A stretch of 64,000 bases of DNA from Thermovorax subterraneus (GTDB lineage: Bacteria > Bacillota > Thermosediminibacteria > Thermosediminibacterales > Thermosediminibacteraceae), in the NCBI GenBank assembly GCA_021608145.1, contig JAKIHM010000001.1:248001-312000 (forward strand). Reading direction: 5' to 3'. Each line of letters begins with the position of its first letter. The stretch's first letter is position 1. Below the pieces are notes generated by a model. That model was not told the DNA's origin. It worked only from the letters and a program-made list of their open reading frames with translations, and ran no database searches. The translations under genes were made by a program, and so were the position numbers. Below, piece after piece: positions 1,670-28,339 of the stretch.

Positions 1670-1683
1670 CAAACAAATGTTCG
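1670..1683. promoter_or_regulatory. LexA/SOS-box-like operator in the dinB leader
   Basis: The 14-mer CAAACAAATGTTCG lies at the expected transcription start. Its complement begins CGAAC and matches the Bacillus-type LexA box CGAAC-N4-GTTYG-like consensus at about 12 of 14 positions. dinB genes are classical SOS targets, and the same 14-mer recurs at 24380-24393. Confidence 0.65.
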
Positions 1684-1693
1684 AGGTGGTTTT

Positions 1694-2905
1694 ATGCTCA
1701 CCATCCTCCACGTGGACATGAACGCCTTTTACGCCTCCTGCCACCAGGCGGTAGACCCCTCGCTCAGGGGAAGGCCTGTGATAGTCGCCGGAGACCCCAA
1801 AAAGAGAAACGGCATAGTGCTCACCGCCTCCTATGAAGCGAGGAAGTTCGGGGTAAGGACTGCCATGCCCCTCTGGGAGGCAAAGAGGCTGTGCCCTAAA
1901 GCGGTTTTTCTAAAGCCCGACTACCGGCTCTACGTAGAATTCAGCCACCGGGCGATGGAAATCCTGAAGAGATTTACACCCCTTGTGGAAGTCTTCAGCA
2001 TAGACGAGGCCTGGCTGGACGTGGAAGGATGCGAGGGGCTTTTCGGGGATGCCATGACCATAGCGGAGAAAATCCAAAAATCGATGATGGAGGAACTTTC
2101 ACTGCCCTGCTCCGTGGGGGTCTCCTGCAACAAGCTTCTGTCAAAGATGGCCTCGGACATGAAAAAACCTATGGGCATTACCGTCATAACCCCCGACGAC
2201 GTGCAAAAGATGCTCTGGCCCCTGCCGGTGGAGGAACTCTACGGCGTGGGGCCCAGGATGGCGAAACACCTCAAAAAGATGAACGTAAACACCATCGGGG
2301 ACCTGGCGAGGATTCCCGCAGAATTCCTGCAGGCGGCCTTCGGAGTGGTGGGGCTTCGCCTTCACCGGTGGGCCAACGGCATCGACGATTCCCCGATGGA
2401 CCCCCATTCCGCGGATGAGGCCAAGTCCATGGGGCATTCGGTGACCTTGCCGCAGGACGTTACAACTCGGGAGGAAGCTGAGGCCGTGCTGCTTTCCCTT
2501 TCCGAACAGGTGGGAAGGAGGGTGAGGTGCGGCGGATACGTGGGGAGGGTGGTGACCGTTACCCTCCGGGACTCTTCCTTCGTCACCGTTACCCGCTCCG
2601 CCACAGTTCCCTACACGAACCTTACCGAAGACATATATAGGGCCGCAAAAAAACTCTTACACTCCAACTGGGACGGGAAAACGCCCCTTAGGCTCCTGGG
2701 GGTGAGCCTTTCCGGCCTCATAAAGGAATTCGACCAGATTTCCCTATTCGCGGAGGACGAAAAGAAAAAGAGGCTCGACCGGGCCGTGGACGAAATAAGG
2801 GAAAGATTCGGGGATGACGCCATCTTCCGGGCTTCCCTTTCGTCCCAGGACTTCCTAGGACGAAAGGGAAGCGTGGCTTTAGGACCTTTCTTAAAGCGAA
2901 ATTGA
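1694..2905 (+). CDS. dinB: DNA polymerase IV (Y-family translesion polymerase)
   Basis: A 403-residue Y-family polymerase that copies past damaged template bases. Catalytic carboxylates are visible as D8 (in HVDMNAF) and D104-E105 (in FSIDEAWLD). The fingers region has the TASYEAR motif near residue 45, helix-hairpin-helix DNA-binding segments lie near 170-215, and the little-finger domain follows. Near the C-terminus QISLF fits the QxxLF beta-clamp-binding peptide. The start is the ATG at 1694, 4 nt after GAGGTGG; an upstream in-frame TTG lies in the promoter. An SOS-like box between the -10 element and the start suggests DNA-damage induction, presumably via LexA. Confidence 0.95.
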   Translation: MLTILHVDMNAFYASCHQAVDPSLRGRPVIVAGDPKKRNGIVLTASYEARKFGVRTAMPLWEAKRLCPKAVFLKPDYRLYVEFSHRAMEILKRFTPLVEVFSIDEAWLDVEGCEGLFGDAMTIAEKIQKSMMEELSLPCSVGVSCNKLLSKMASDMKKPMGITVITPDDVQKMLWPLPVEELYGVGPRMAKHLKKMNVNTIGDLARIPAEFLQAAFGVVGLRLHRWANGIDDSPMDPHSADEAKSMGHSVTLPQDVTTREEAEAVLLSLSEQVGRRVRCGGYVGRVVTVTLRDSSFVTVTRSATVPYTNLTEDIYRAAKKLLHSNWDGKTPLRLLGVSLSGLIKEFDQISLFAEDEKKKRLDRAVDEIRERFGDDAIFRASLSSQDFLGRKGSVALGPFLKRN

Positions 2906-2996: not shown

Positions 2997-3176
2997 ATGG
3001 CTCTTATCAAAAACCTGTGGGCGGACGAAAAGGGACAGGCCATGGCCGAATACGGACTCATTCTGGCTTTGGTTGCCGTGGTGGTCATCGGCGCGCTGAC
3101 GCTACTTGGAAACAATATCAGTGCAAGATTTAACGAAGTAGCCGGTGAGATAGGCCCCAATACTTCGACCCCATAA
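2997..3176 (+). CDS. flp: Flp/Tad type IVb pilin
   Basis: A 59-residue major pilin subunit. A short basic leader and a GQAMAEYGLILALVA stretch (residues 13-27) give the Flp signature: a prepilin cleavage glycine, then the E-Y pair and a hydrophobic helix that forms the filament core. A polar tail of about 20 residues ends the protein. GAGGGGG sits 7 nt before the ATG. It is the first gene of the Tad locus, followed by a hairpin that could favour a separate abundant pilin message. The prepilin peptidase encoded next should process it. Confidence 0.9.
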   Translation: MALIKNLWADEKGQAMAEYGLILALVAVVVIGALTLLGNNISARFNEVAGEIGPNTSTP

Positions 3177-23743: not shown

Positions 23744-24328
23744 TCAAAACCCGCCGCTTTTTTCTAGAATTTGAAGCAGGAGTTTTACAAGTTCCTCCCG
23801 GAGATGCTCTTTTTCCCCGTAAGCCAATTTATCTTCGTTGATGCGGTTTTTGCCACTTTTTTGCCTTTCATCGTAAAGGCTAGCAATAAGCCTTGCGTCC
23901 TTCATGTATTCCATGAGCGTAGATTTTGCGATAAGTATTTTGAGTTCCCGTCCGCATGAAAGCAGGACCCGGCAGCCCAGGGCTTCCTCCGAAACCTTCT
24001 GGATCTCGTAATACGATAGGTACCCCACGGTGCCATCGTTCTCGCTCAGTGGCCTTTCCCGGAACTTTACAGGGATGAGGATTAAAGAGGAAGAAAGGGG
24101 AATAGGCACGTAATTTTTCCGGTTTACAGCCTTTCCGTAATTCTTCCGAAGGGCGGAAAGGTCGGCCCCGTAAGCCCGGGCTACCCTTTTTAACACTGTC
24201 TTTACCGTTTTCGGTATGAGGTGTTCTCCTCCGTCGGAAGTGATGAGGCGGGTGACGTTACCCTGGCCGCTTTCGTAAACAGGCACTAAAGCCGCGATGC
24301 CCGAATTTAAAAAGGCCTCTATATTCAA
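23744..24328 (-). CDS. ComK-like competence regulator
   Basis: A 194-residue protein resembling the ComK family in layout and motifs: an early A-L-V-P-V-Y-E-S-G-Q-G-N-V-T-R, then P-K-T-V-K-T-V-L-K-R-V-A-R-A-Y-G-A-D-L, V-P-I-P-L-S-S-S-L-I-L-I-P-V-K, G-Y-L-S-Y-Y-E-I and a late A-R-L-I-A-S-L-Y. ComK activates DNA-uptake genes. I place it in this family from memory of the pattern, not a search. The start is a TTG at 24328, 6 nt after GGAGGTG; a longer frame would run through the promoter. Its promoter has consensus boxes with an SOS-like operator between them. The stop lies 6 nt from that of cheB. Confidence 0.55.
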   Translation of the reverse strand: MNIEAFLNSGIAALVPVYESGQGNVTRLITSDGGEHLIPKTVKTVLKRVARAYGADLSALRKNYGKAVNRKNYVPIPLSSSLILIPVKFRERPLSENDGTVGYLSYYEIQKVSEEALGCRVLLSCGRELKILIAKSTLMEYMKDARLIASLYDERQKSGKNRINEDKLAYGEKEHLREELVKLLLQILEKSGGF

Positions 24329-24371
24329 TTGCAACACCTCCAGATTCTGGCGAAGGCGGAACTTTAAGACA

Positions 24372-24400
24372 ATTATAACCAAACAAATGTTCGATGTCAA
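24372..24400 (-). promoter_or_regulatory. Consensus sigma-A promoter of the ComK-like gene
   Basis: On the minus strand perfect TTGACA (24395-24400) and TATAAT (24372-24377) hexamers are 17 bp apart. The promoter overlaps the 3' end of the amidase gene by 4 bp. Such a perfect promoter implies strong activity unless repressed. Confidence 0.85.
24380..24393. promoter_or_regulatory. LexA/SOS-box-like operator inside the ComK-like promoter
   Basis: The 14-mer is identical to the one in the dinB leader (1670-1683). On the minus strand it reads CGAACATTTGTTTG and fills most of the 17-bp spacer, where a bound repressor would block RNA polymerase. Confidence 0.6.
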
Positions 24401-24912
24401 GACCAAAAAGAAAAGGAAAATCTGTCGCCTGGACATTCGGTTTTCGCACCTATGACTTCCGAGTGCTTCAGCACCGACTGCGGGGGTATGAAGTAGACGT
24501 CCATCAAAAAGAATATCAGCTCCTTCAAGGCTTTTAGCTGGGCTGGCGTAGGCGCTGTATGGCCTTTTTTGCCCGTAGGGTTGTCTTTGGAAGAAAAGTT
24601 ACCCGTGAGGGCTATGCCTATTGATCGGGAATTCATACCAGCTGCGGCGCAGTGGGCCCCCGGGGCAAAATCGGGCCTGCCCCTTTCTACAGTGCCGTCG
24701 GCCCTGATGAGGTAGTGGTAGCCGATGCTCACGACGGCTGCATCGCCTTCGCAGGGGAAACCCCGTTTTCGGTATTCTTCTACCAGGGAATGGGGCTCCG
24801 ATATCTTTATCCCGTAACCCCTTGCAGCGTGCATCCTGTTTATCTCTAAGGCCGAAACGTCGTGCCCTGCGGTATGGTGGACCACTATAAATCTGGGGTA
24901 GAGCCTTTCCAT
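24397..24912 (-). CDS. N-acetylmuramoyl-L-alanine amidase (amidase_2/PGRP fold)
   Basis: A 171-residue peptidoglycan amidase. V-V-H-H-T-A-G at residues 10-16 gives the first zinc histidine, Y-H-Y-L-I near 67 and G-A-H-C-A-A-A-G-M-N near 85 are fold motifs, and H-S-E-V with T-E-C-P-G-D near the end supplies the second histidine and a cysteine ligand. No signal peptide or wall-binding domain is present, so it resembles a phage-type endolysin. AAGAGGATAAAGG precedes the ATG, and a 9-bp hairpin lies just upstream (24927-24955). The neighbouring YvrJ and DUF1659/2922 genes follow a common Firmicute grouping. Confidence 0.9.
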   Translation of the reverse strand: MERLYPRFIVVHHTAGHDVSALEINRMHAARGYGIKISEPHSLVEEYRKRGFPCEGDAAVVSIGYHYLIRADGTVERGRPDFAPGAHCAAAGMNSRSIGIALTGNFSSKDNPTGKKGHTAPTPAQLKALKELIFFLMDVYFIPPQSVLKHSEVIGAKTECPGDRFSFSFWS

Positions 24913-25023
24913 GTCCTTTATCCTCTTGCCCGAACCGTAAGTTGCTGTTCGGGCAGCCGGGCTATTTTTACCGCCTTTTTAAAGAGCGCCCTTCCCAGCA
25001 GGCGGTATTAGGCACTCCAAAGC

Positions 25024-25176
25024 TTATTTTGGGATTTTCAACCCTTCTATAACCTTTGAAAGCTCGTGGATGCTGACCGTGAGACTCTCCATCTTGGATT
25101 CTATGCGCACGAGGAGATATATAGAAATCACGATGGGAAAGCCCACGTTAGCAACCTGAGCTATCAGTTCTTCCAT
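25024..25176 (-). CDS. YvrJ family small membrane protein
   Basis: A 50-residue protein. The N-terminus M-E-E-L-I-A-Q-V-A-N-V-G-F-P-I, one hydrophobic helix (about 10-25) and the L-L-V-R-I-E-S-K-M-E motif match the YvrJ family. A short amphipathic tail ends it. Function is unknown. Its size and its place before an amidase gene recall holin-like partners, but that is speculation. GGAGG lies just upstream of the ATG. Confidence 0.85.
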   Translation of the reverse strand: MEELIAQVANVGFPIVISIYLLVRIESKMESLTVSIHELSKVIEGLKIPK

Positions 25177-25205
25177 TGTCGCACCTCCTTCAGATTAAAT
25201 TAAAG

Positions 25206-25225
25206 CCCCGGGCGAAAGCCCGGGG
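25206..25225 (-). terminator. GC-rich hairpin between DUF2922 and yvrJ
   Basis: A perfect 8-bp stem, CCCCGGGC and GCCCGGGG, has a 4-nt loop and lies just after the DUF2922 stop. On the minus strand it is followed by CTTTAATTTAAT, a weak U tract, so termination may be partial. Confidence 0.6.
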
Positions 25226-25230
25226 GAGAA

Positions 25231-25452
25231 TTATCCGGCGGATATTATTTCCACGGCGTCCCTTATGATTATCCTGGCCCCGAGGGCTTTTACGATGTCG
25301 CCGCCGCTGGTGGAGAAGATGTTCTTTGCGACCACTAGGTCCATCACCGGCTGCACTTCCGCAGGGGTCAGATTTTCCTTCGGGTCGGCGATGAGGATCC
25401 GGGCGGTCCTGCCGGCTTCGTTTTGAAAGCTGAGCTCTAAGGTCTGGGCCAT
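25231..25452 (-). CDS. DUF2922 family protein
   Basis: A 73-residue protein with the DUF2922 pattern: M-A-Q-T-L-E-L-S-F-Q-N at the start, I-A-D-P-K-E-N-L-T-P-A-E-V near 22-34, and V-V-A-K-N-I-F-S-T-S-G-G-D near 40-52. Function is unknown. The family nearly always sits beside DUF1659 and often YvrJ genes in Firmicutes, as here. AAAGGAGGTG precedes the ATG. Confidence 0.88.
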   Translation of the reverse strand: MAQTLELSFQNEAGRTARILIADPKENLTPAEVQPVMDLVVAKNIFSTSGGDIVKALGARIIIRDAVEIISAG

Positions 25453-25485
25453 GGGCTACACCTCCTTTCTGCGTTTTAGATTTTC

Positions 25486-25713
25486 TTATTGTTCCTCGGT
25501 CAGGGCGATTTCCACCACCTTTACGATGGAGTCCACGGGATGGGACTGAAGGTTGGCGAAGGCCTTTGCCACCGCCATCACGTCGTCGTCCACAGCGGAG
25601 GGCTTTAAGTTCCTGAAGGACCTCGTCCTTGTTACAGGCCTTCCGCCTTGGTCGGTCCCGGTCTGGACTACTACCTGCAGGGTGGCGTCTACGGGAGTCG
25701 CGATAACCGCCAT
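25486..25713 (-). CDS. DUF1659 family protein
   Basis: A 75-residue protein. M-A-V-I-A-T-P-V-D-A-T-L-Q, then a G-R-P-V-T-R-T-R-S-F-R-N-L motif and a C-terminal V-D-S-I-V-K-V-V-E-I-A-L, fit DUF1659. Function is unknown. It is probably co-transcribed with DUF2922 and yvrJ. The ATG at 25713 is 6 nt after AGGTG. The IS607 element ends roughly 30 nt upstream, so its native promoter may have been displaced. Confidence 0.82.
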   Translation of the reverse strand: MAVIATPVDATLQVVVQTGTDQGGRPVTRTRSFRNLKPSAVDDDVMAVAKAFANLQSHPVDSIVKVVEIALTEEQ

Positions 25714-25741
25714 CGGCTTCACCTGGTTCAAAAAACTTGAC

Positions 25742-26060
25742 TGTTTTTATCTCCAGCCAAGCCGGCCCCCAGACCAGGATTTCGCCTCGTTCCCGGATAT
25801 TTGATTTGCCCTCCGAGGGGCAGGGCGACAGGGGGCCTCGGCCCGGGAGTCCCACCCGGAACCCGGACGGAGAGGTTATCCCCTCCCGTACCCCAGACTC
25901 GCCTGCTCGGACTGACGGGGTGTTTTTCAACACCCGCAGGTCTGAGTGAACTGGAGTAGAGGCGGTGTGCTCACCGCCGCCCGAGCCGTCCTGTCAGGAC
26001 GCCTACCGGTTTGTCCGACACCGGCTAAACGGGGTCACCGTAAGGACAGGGCAAGCTTTT
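25742..26060 (-). ncRNA. Probable omega RNA (reRNA) at the tnpB 3' end
   Basis: This GC-rich stretch begins at the tnpB stop and runs to the apparent element end. On the minus strand it holds stacked hairpins: CGTCCTG/CAGGACG, GGCGGTG-AGCA-CACCGCC, GGGTGTT/AACACCC and others. TnpB loci make a guide RNA from the tnpB 3' end through the element's right end, the last ~16-20 nt being the guide taken from flanking DNA. Position, strand and structure fit. The exact 3' boundary is not determined. Confidence 0.65.
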
Positions 26061-27723
26061 TGAGGTCATGCCAGACGGAATAATACGCCTCCTGCAGCCA
26101 CCGGGCAAGCCCGTTGTGCTGCAGGAGCTTCCCCTCCAGCCGCCTCAAGCAGGCCCTGACCCTGCGGGTCATCCCTCTTCCTTCCCTCGGTGTATTAGGA
26201 TCGACCTTACAGGTCAGGTTTTGCTTGATTTGGGCTACTAGTTGTTTAAGTTCTATAGTTACCCGTTCCTTAAAGCCCATCGCCCGGCGACCAATAACCA
26301 ATGCCGCCGCGCAGTGCACCGGAACGGCGTAACGCTCCATGTACTTCCAGTAACCTATGGTGGACGTGTGCCGGGCAGGTACGAGCTTGAAGGGCATTCC
26401 TTCATTGACAGCCCTCCGGCACACCACCTCCACCATTTTGGCAAAGGGAAAGTTTGAAGCCATTCGGTTAAACTTTTTGTTGGTATCCAGCCTGTCTTTG
26501 CCGAAATCCAGGTCCTCCAGGACTATGGGTTTGCCCAGGGAGAAAGCCACGTCAGTGATTACCCTAGCTAAAACGCCTATAAGATAGTCCCTCCGGAAGC
26601 CACAAGCATAGGCTAAGTCGGGTATCCTGATGTAGAGAAAGCCGTTCAGGTAAGTGATAACTTGAAACTCTCCCTCGTACTTGCCCAGGTTGCCGGGGTA
26701 AGGTATATTAAAACCTTCCGGCCACTGCTCCGGCTGGCCTGAGGCGTTTACATTGCATAAGGCCACGCCGTCAGGATTGATGTCCAGGGCTAAACAACCT
26801 TTAGTAAAATCGGGTTCCTTCATCCCGCCCAAATCCAACGTCAGATGCGCTATATAGCGGTCCTGCGGGGTGCGGACCAGCTCTACTGTGTAGGGCAGCT
26901 TCATAGCTAGCCATATCCGCACCAGGTCCCGGTGCTTCTCCGGCAGCCACAATCTCCCTTCTACTCTGGGGGCTTTGCTCATCTTCGGGCGGCCAAGTTT
27001 ATCCGTGCCTGTCTGTTCGGAAAGGTGGGATATGGAGATAGCCAAGTGAAACTCTTGCCCGCCAAAGGATACCTTAATGTTAGGGTTGCCGCCCTTGGTC
27101 TCGTCTCCCCGGGAGTAGAGGCGGTTTTTGCGGGATGCTCGCCACTCTTCCTGCGTGGCCTGCCCCTTGCAGACCCTTTTCCAGAGTTTTCTCCCGCCAA
27201 ACACCACCTTGGGTACGGTCCCGTTTTCCCGGTGGGCCTCCAGTTCGGCCAACTTCTCCTCTAAAGACGCTACCCGGTTGTTCCGCCCCTTGACTGCCAG
27301 GCGGAGTTTTTCAACAATATCCGGGGCATCGCCTTTCCTCTCTGCTTTTACCAGCTTTCTCATAGCAAGGCCGAGCTTCTTCCTCGCCCGGCGTAGCTTG
27401 TTTTTTGTTTCCTCAATCTCCAGCTCCAGCAGCTCTTTTTGGGAGTCCAGCACGGCCTGTGCCTTAAGCCTGGCATCGTCCACATAGCGGGAGTTGATTC
27501 CGAAAAGATCTTGCCCCCATTTCTTTATTTCATCGCGGGATGCACCCTCTAGTAGCCGGTTGAAGGCCCAACGCTGGCAGGCAGAGAAAAGGCGCATCTC
27601 CGTCTCAAGAGGGTCTTCCTCCCCACGGCCCCATTTCTGTGAACGAAAGGCCGGGTAAACTTCCGGAAAGAACTCTCCACAAACTGTCATGCTAAATTTG
27701 TCCTTCTTGTGTTTCTTCGGCAT
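26035..27723 (-). CDS. tnpB: TnpB-related protein with atypical RuvC site
   Basis: A 562-residue TnpB-family protein. RuvC motif I is L-A-L-D-I-N-P-D-G near 310, and motif II is I-V-L-E-D-L-D-F near 412. At motif III the usual D-x-N-A-A block appears as V-P-V-H-C-A-A-A-L-V-I-G-R-R, so histidine or cysteine replaces the third aspartate. The CxxC...CxxC zinc finger of typical TnpB is absent. A long charged coiled region lies at 95-170. It overlaps tnpA by 32 nt and carries the omega RNA at its 3' end. This looks like the long TnpB-related subfamily; whether it still cuts DNA is uncertain. Confidence 0.85.
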   Translation of the reverse strand: MPKKHKKDKFSMTVCGEFFPEVYPAFRSQKWGRGEEDPLETEMRLFSACQRWAFNRLLEGASRDEIKKWGQDLFGINSRYVDDARLKAQAVLDSQKELLELEIEETKNKLRRARKKLGLAMRKLVKAERKGDAPDIVEKLRLAVKGRNNRVASLEEKLAELEAHRENGTVPKVVFGGRKLWKRVCKGQATQEEWRASRKNRLYSRGDETKGGNPNIKVSFGGQEFHLAISISHLSEQTGTDKLGRPKMSKAPRVEGRLWLPEKHRDLVRIWLAMKLPYTVELVRTPQDRYIAHLTLDLGGMKEPDFTKGCLALDINPDGVALCNVNASGQPEQWPEGFNIPYPGNLGKYEGEFQVITYLNGFLYIRIPDLAYACGFRRDYLIGVLARVITDVAFSLGKPIVLEDLDFGKDRLDTNKKFNRMASNFPFAKMVEVVCRRAVNEGMPFKLVPARHTSTIGYWKYMERYAVPVHCAAALVIGRRAMGFKERVTIELKQLVAQIKQNLTCKVDPNTPREGRGMTRRVRACLRRLEGKLLQHNGLARWLQEAYYSVWHDLKKLALSLR

Positions 27724-28339
27724 CTCTTATCAGCTCCCGAAAACCCTGCCGGATTTTCTTGCCACCCCTCGCACCATACAGCCGGGCTGAAAAAAAAGTC
27801 ACTACAGCCAGTAAATCCTGGACCAGTTCCGTATGTGCATCTTCAGCCTCCTTCTGCGAGGTGATTTCTATCTCCACACCGCAGTACTTAAGATGGCGTT
27901 CCAAATAGGCATACCCGAATCTTGCCAGCCTGTCGGGGTATTCGATGAGCAATTTCTTAAACTCGCCCTTCTCAGCCACTTTCAGCATACGCTCCAGACC
28001 CCGGCGGTTCTGGTTTAAACCCGAAGCCACATCCGAATACTCCGCCACCACACGGTAACCCTTCTCCTGTGCGTATGCCCGCAGCCTCTCCATCTGACGC
28101 TCAAGATTTCCAGCATCAGCCTGTTTCTTCGTAGACACCCTGGCGTAGAGGGCAACCGCGTCCGGCTCTGCCTTTATCCCTCCCGTTCCTAAAATGCGGT
28201 TGATTTCCTCCACCGGGTATCTCCGCTGGCCGCTGGGCAACCGCACAGGCCTGATTAGTCCCTGTTTTTCCCATGCCCGAAGCCTGTTCGGGTGTACACC
28301 TAATCTTTTTGCTGCTTCTCCAATGGATAAGAGTTCCAT
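27692..28339 (-). CDS. tnpA: IS607-type serine recombinase TnpA
   Basis: A 215-residue transposase. Residues 1-50 are a MerR-like helix-turn-helix (I-G-E-A-A-K-R-L-G-V-H-P-N-R-L-R). The serine recombinase domain follows, with the catalytic serine in Y-A-R-V-S-T-K-K-Q near 69 and the arginines in Y-P-D-R-L-A-R-F-G-Y near 133. It is small as IS607 TnpA proteins are, lacking the large-recombinase C-terminal domain. The ATG lies only 6 nt after the -10 box, so the message is probably leaderless. Confidence 0.93.
   Translation of the reverse strand: MELLSIGEAAKRLGVHPNRLRAWEKQGLIRPVRLPSGQRRYPVEEINRILGTGGIKAEPDAVALYARVSTKKQADAGNLERQMERLRAYAQEKGYRVVAEYSDVASGLNQNRRGLERMLKVAEKGEFKKLLIEYPDRLARFGYAYLERHLKYCGVEIEITSQKEAEDAHTELVQDLLAVVTFFSARLYGARGGKKIRQGFRELIRDAEETQEGQI

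Follow-up and report, generated by a model that had tools for sequence, protein, structure and literature searches.

The ComK-like gene and its promoter

On its minus strand, the window (i.e., the whole 64-kb stretch of DNA that was analysed) holds a gene for a ComK-like protein, the most likely start codon of which is the TTG at 24328 that follows the ribosome-binding sequence GGAGGTG (Table 1). The gene is preceded, on the same strand, by a sigma-70-type promoter that matches the consensus at 12 of 12 positions, with a spacer of 17 bp of which positions 24393 to 24380 are taken up by a 14-mer. This is the arrangement described in the initial annotation, which had reported a perfect TTGACA-17-TATAAT promoter with the 14-mer in its spacer (24400–24372) without giving its strand. 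Since the upstream amidase gene ends at this promoter, read-through is possible and the expression of comK-like could be partly independent of LexA.

Table 1. Coordinates of the main features in the window.
Feature	Position	Strand	Evidence or remark
LexA operator (predicted), identical	1670..1683	+	just downstream of the dinB –10
dinB (Y-family DNA polymerase)	1694..2905	+	Pfam IMS, 182 bits
ComK-like gene, 194 aa, TTG start	23744..24328	-	Pfam ComK; 20-member order alignment; tblastn to Geobacillus ComK
Ribosome-binding site GGAGGTG	24335..24341	-	sequence
–10 TATAAT	24372..24377	-	sequence
LexA operator (predicted) CGAACATTTGTTTG	24380..24393	-	promoter spacer of the comK-like gene; conserved in order and phylum
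–35 TTGACA	24395..24400	-	shares bases with the stop codon of the amidase gene upstream
N-acetylmuramoyl-L-alanine amidase (Amidase_2)	24397..24912	-	Pfam Amidase_2, 84.5 bits; adjoins comK-like across the order (synteny)
Small protein, DUF2922-like by eye	25231..25452	-	ORF list; order conserved in relatives
Small protein, DUF1659-like by eye	25486..25731	-	ORF list; sub-cutoff match to SroA; order conserved

The 14-mer (CAAACAAATGTTCG) had been reported from the dinB leader and from the promoter of the ComK-like gene, and both copies were indeed present (at 1670–1683 and 24380–24393, respectively). A genome-wide pattern search moreover found these to be the only two exact copies in the whole 2.45-Mb genome, so that the 14-mer is confined to two promoters rather than scattered over random sites. 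Read on the minus strand, the copy at the ComK-like gene becomes CGAACATTTGTTTG, which is of the GAACN4GTTC type (i.e., that of the Firmicute LexA operator). A chance scan of the 64-kb window alone was uninformative at three mismatches. What speaks for this operator is that the match is exact, that it sits in a promoter and that it is conserved.

LexA boxes and the SOS system of the source genome

A LexA-type DNA-binding domain was detected in just one protein of the genome, which scores 242.7 bits on the NCBIfam lexA equivalog model and passes it. This protein has the features of self-cleavage (i.e., an Ala-Gly cleavage site together with both dyad residues, Ser and Lys), and recA is encoded in the same genome as this canonical lexA. 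A pattern search with RAACATNNGTTY returned 21 sites, those located at promoters preceding recA, lexA, dinB, a dnaE-type polymerase gene, comK-like and a phage-type integrase gene, and most of the remaining ones lying inside ORFs. Specifically, the lexA promoter carries TAAACATTTGTTTG, the recA box (AAACATGTGTTT) lies over the ribosome-binding region, and the boxes of the dnaE-type polymerase and phage-type integrase genes read CGAACATACGTTTG and CGAACATAAGTTCA, respectively. At dinB, the box is situated past the –10 and outside the spacer of the promoter (TTGATT-17-TATAAT, 1634–1662). The autoregulatory box of lexA is of the same type as the box of comK-like, both here and in relatives, which bears out the SOS-type assignment made in the initial annotation.

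The ComK-like protein and its possible targets

The product of the gene passed the Pfam ComK profile (PF06338) with 24.6 bits against a cutoff of 22.3 (E 2.4e-5), covering 145 of the 152 profile positions (7–151), and aligned by tblastn with an annotated Geobacillus ComK (E 8e-4, 27.5% identity). A profile comparison with a sequence standing for B. subtilis ComK gave a weak match (E 6e-4, probability 29%); since that sequence itself scores 213 bits on Pfam ComK, it is usable for this purpose. Within the order, 12 of 20 members matched ComK at E 1e-3. Most members from the wider phylum fell under the Pfam cutoff (9 of 10 sampled ones did not match), and these relatives were detected with a profile of the order's proteins instead. 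The AlphaFold model of the protein was good (pLDDT 84.7), and its fold comparison against the PDB yielded no match at E 0.001 or better (best E 0.01, TM-score 0.25). Judged from its sequence, the protein is a distant ComK homologue, with a homology to B. subtilis ComK that extends over nearly the whole Pfam domain and with the same overall size. A phage origin of the gene was rejected, no relative being found in viral contigs or phage records.

This distant homology, along with gene content, suggests that the ComK-like protein may activate DNA uptake. Genes for ComEC and type II/IV secretion ATPases occur in each of the order's 14 high-quality genomes. Across the phylum, however, ComEC is so close to universal (374 of 398 genomes) that its co-occurrence with comK-like says little, and the association was indeed weak (124/126 genomes with comK-like vs. 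250/272 others, p 0.011).

It could also be that LexA controls the gene but that the ComK-like protein runs another SOS output than DNA uptake, an alternative with odds somewhat below even. The homology to ComK is distant only, and no consistent AAAAN5TTTT site was found before comEC or the pilB/pilus operon, bearing in mind that this consensus is that of ComK and may not be that of the present branch. Moreover, the neighbourhood of the gene offers two other candidate outputs. One is recombinational repair: a co-directional RecD2-type helicase gene lies 3′ of comK-like and downstream of the LexA box in some relatives (loci L223, L224, L164, L169, L171 and L179, with the RecD2 identity confirmed by Pfam in L223 only), the adjacency being seen in relatives from the class and in one other family. 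RecD2 is a helicase of DNA recombination. The other is cell-wall lysis, as the cassette upstream of comK-like (24397–25731, minus strand), consisting of the Amidase_2 hydrolase and two small proteins, is kept throughout the order. Against such other outputs stand the direct matches to ComK by three routes (i.e., Pfam, tblastn and profile comparison) and the above-mentioned uptake genes in every high-quality genome of the order.

Conservation of the operator within and beyond the order

The comK-like gene was found in 19 of the 22 genomes of the order (14/14 high-quality ones; named members include Fervidicola ferrireducens, Thermosediminibacter and Tepidanaerobacter), and 18 of these 19 have the operator at its promoter. 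This promoter is laid out in at least three ways, with the box located within the spacer (most genomes), after the –10 (G021), or as two boxes flanking the –10 (genera g5 and g9). Substitutions in the operator mainly affect its degenerate positions (2 and 6–9), as would be expected under selection for a LexA site. The sole exception, G013, lacks the canonical box at both comK-like and lexA. Genome G005 has a second, divergent comK-like copy that is also without a box.

Similar half-sites for a regulator other than LexA (for instance the ComK-like protein, or a phage repressor resembling LexA) are conceivable, but it is very improbable that such a regulator is what binds the palindrome, given the joint absence of the box at both genes in G013, the presence of the same box before lexA, recA and dinB in the source genome, and the single LexA-type DNA-binding domain found there.

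When the phylum was searched with a profile built from the order's proteins, the gene was detected in 126 of 398 genomes, most of these loci were retrieved, and the operator was also present at comK-like promoters of relatives from the class. Outside the order, a perfect CRAACN4GTTYG was found in 26 of 89 comK-like promoters, compared to 2 of 186 other promoters from the same loci that served as controls (p 2e-12). With at most one mismatch and within about 170 bp, these numbers rose to 44/89 vs. 6/186 (p 1e-19), and dinucleotide shuffles produced a perfect operator in 0.04% of cases. Families with a box numbered 16 (perfect) or 22 (at most one mismatch) of 43, and the boxed comK-like genes are spread over the protein tree. 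Roughly one in two comK-like genes from the phylum has no recognisable box; at two loci where comK-like has no box of its own (L173 and L211), a box precedes the upstream gene, possibly in the same operon. The box is thus conserved before ComK-like orthologues, both within the order and, by strong enrichment, across the phylum. Although the 14-mer is short and close relatives in the genus have most of the promoter in common anyway, its sharing through chance or through functionless drift from a common ancestor is refuted by the enrichment over shuffles and neighbouring promoters and by the retention of the box where the promoter layout changed.

A proposed model for damage-induced expression of the ComK-like gene

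The CGAACATTTGTTTG element in the core promoter of comK-like is almost certainly a LexA operator, and would place the gene under direct LexA control. The predicted operator and promoter, the complete LexA and the phylum-wide wiring draw their support from sequence and conservation, and LexA binding, repression and induction at comK-like would follow from known LexA biology. In an undamaged cell, LexA would sit between the –35 and –10 of the comK-like promoter and block RNA polymerase. Upon DNA damage, RecA filaments would trigger the self-cleavage of LexA, the loss of which would free the near-consensus promoter, so that the ComK-like protein would be made alongside DinB, RecA and LexA. By activating the transcription of genes for DNA uptake and recombination, this protein would then turn competence into an arm of the SOS response. 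Since the release of a strong promoter by damage is standard LexA behaviour, no other reading is as well supported as direct LexA control.

For this explanation as a whole, we estimate a probability of roughly 0.85, the step from the ComK-like protein to DNA uptake being less certain than the LexA control. The initial annotation had suggested that a competence-type regulator is switched on by DNA damage in this organism; the regulatory half of this suggestion is well supported by the predicted operator, the promoter and their conservation, and its competence half is what we infer. None of the three refuting outcomes named in that annotation (random genomic sites, a different lexA box, no conservation before orthologues) was seen. 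As a more general and tentative proposal, with a chance just short of even, competence could be a direct SOS arm across much of the clostridial phylum, with LexA repressing a ComK-type master regulator. This would help to account for the many bacteria of this kind in which genes for DNA uptake are present but transformation seems to be absent, the inducer lacking so far being DNA damage.

If true, a direct LexA-ComK link would merge the programmes of DNA repair and DNA uptake via one phylum-wide operator, in a wiring that reaches from the thermophilic source organism to many relatives in its phylum. The prediction that follows from it is simple: in these bacteria, in which genetic manipulation is difficult, competence should be induced by DNA damage. 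The link would also be relevant to the long-standing question of a role of transformation in DNA repair.

Comparison with known systems

The LexA proteins of C. difficile and C. thermocellum use a GAACN4GTTC-type motif, and the main texts of the C. difficile LexA-regulon and C. thermocellum DAP-seq papers do not mention comK (PMC4234289, PMC8457756). The present system resembles the LexA (DinR) regulon of Bacillus and Clostridium in operator sequence, in the location of the operator in the core promoter, and in its partners lexA, recA and dinB, but differs from it by including a ComK-like regulator. The comK gene of B. subtilis is regulated through quorum sensing, proteolysis and repressors, and is not known to be under LexA control. 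No report of a LexA-controlled comK was found in the open-licence literature.

A link in the reverse direction is described for B. subtilis, where ComK is reported to overcome the repression of a promoter by LexA (Hamoen 2001, as cited in PMC9380542). Genotoxic stress is known to trigger DNA uptake in S. pneumoniae and H. pylori, in both cases without LexA, and the damage-induced competence of H. pylori is accompanied by the induction of a lysozyme (PMC8394987, PMC2912397). In contrast to both, the link predicted here would consist of LexA acting on a ComK-type regulator, and while the amidase gene adjoins comK-like in a way that recalls the H. pylori lysozyme, the window shows no LexA box for the amidase gene itself.

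Other features of the window and of related loci

In several relatives (L058, L061, L063–L065 and L049–L055), a conserved element (CTTTCGCCTC or GTTTCGCCTTCGCC) lies in the comK-like leader, downstream of the –10 and ahead of the start codon; it is hairpin-like in g5 and g9, and an Rfam search of the leader gave no match. The upstream cassette of some relatives contains an extra small YvrJ-like protein, and the boxed gene upstream of comK-like in L211 and L173 encodes an AAA-ATPase with a winged helix-like C-terminus.

Within the window, a short Flp-pilin-like protein is encoded directly 3′ of dinB (2998–3176, plus strand), and a transposase-like protein beside a serine recombinase with a MerR-like start (26035–28339, minus strand) resembles an IS607-type element. 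Elsewhere in the source genome (L020/L033, G000:C11:18148), the phage-type integrase gene lies directly behind its LexA box, as expected of a damage-inducible mobile element.
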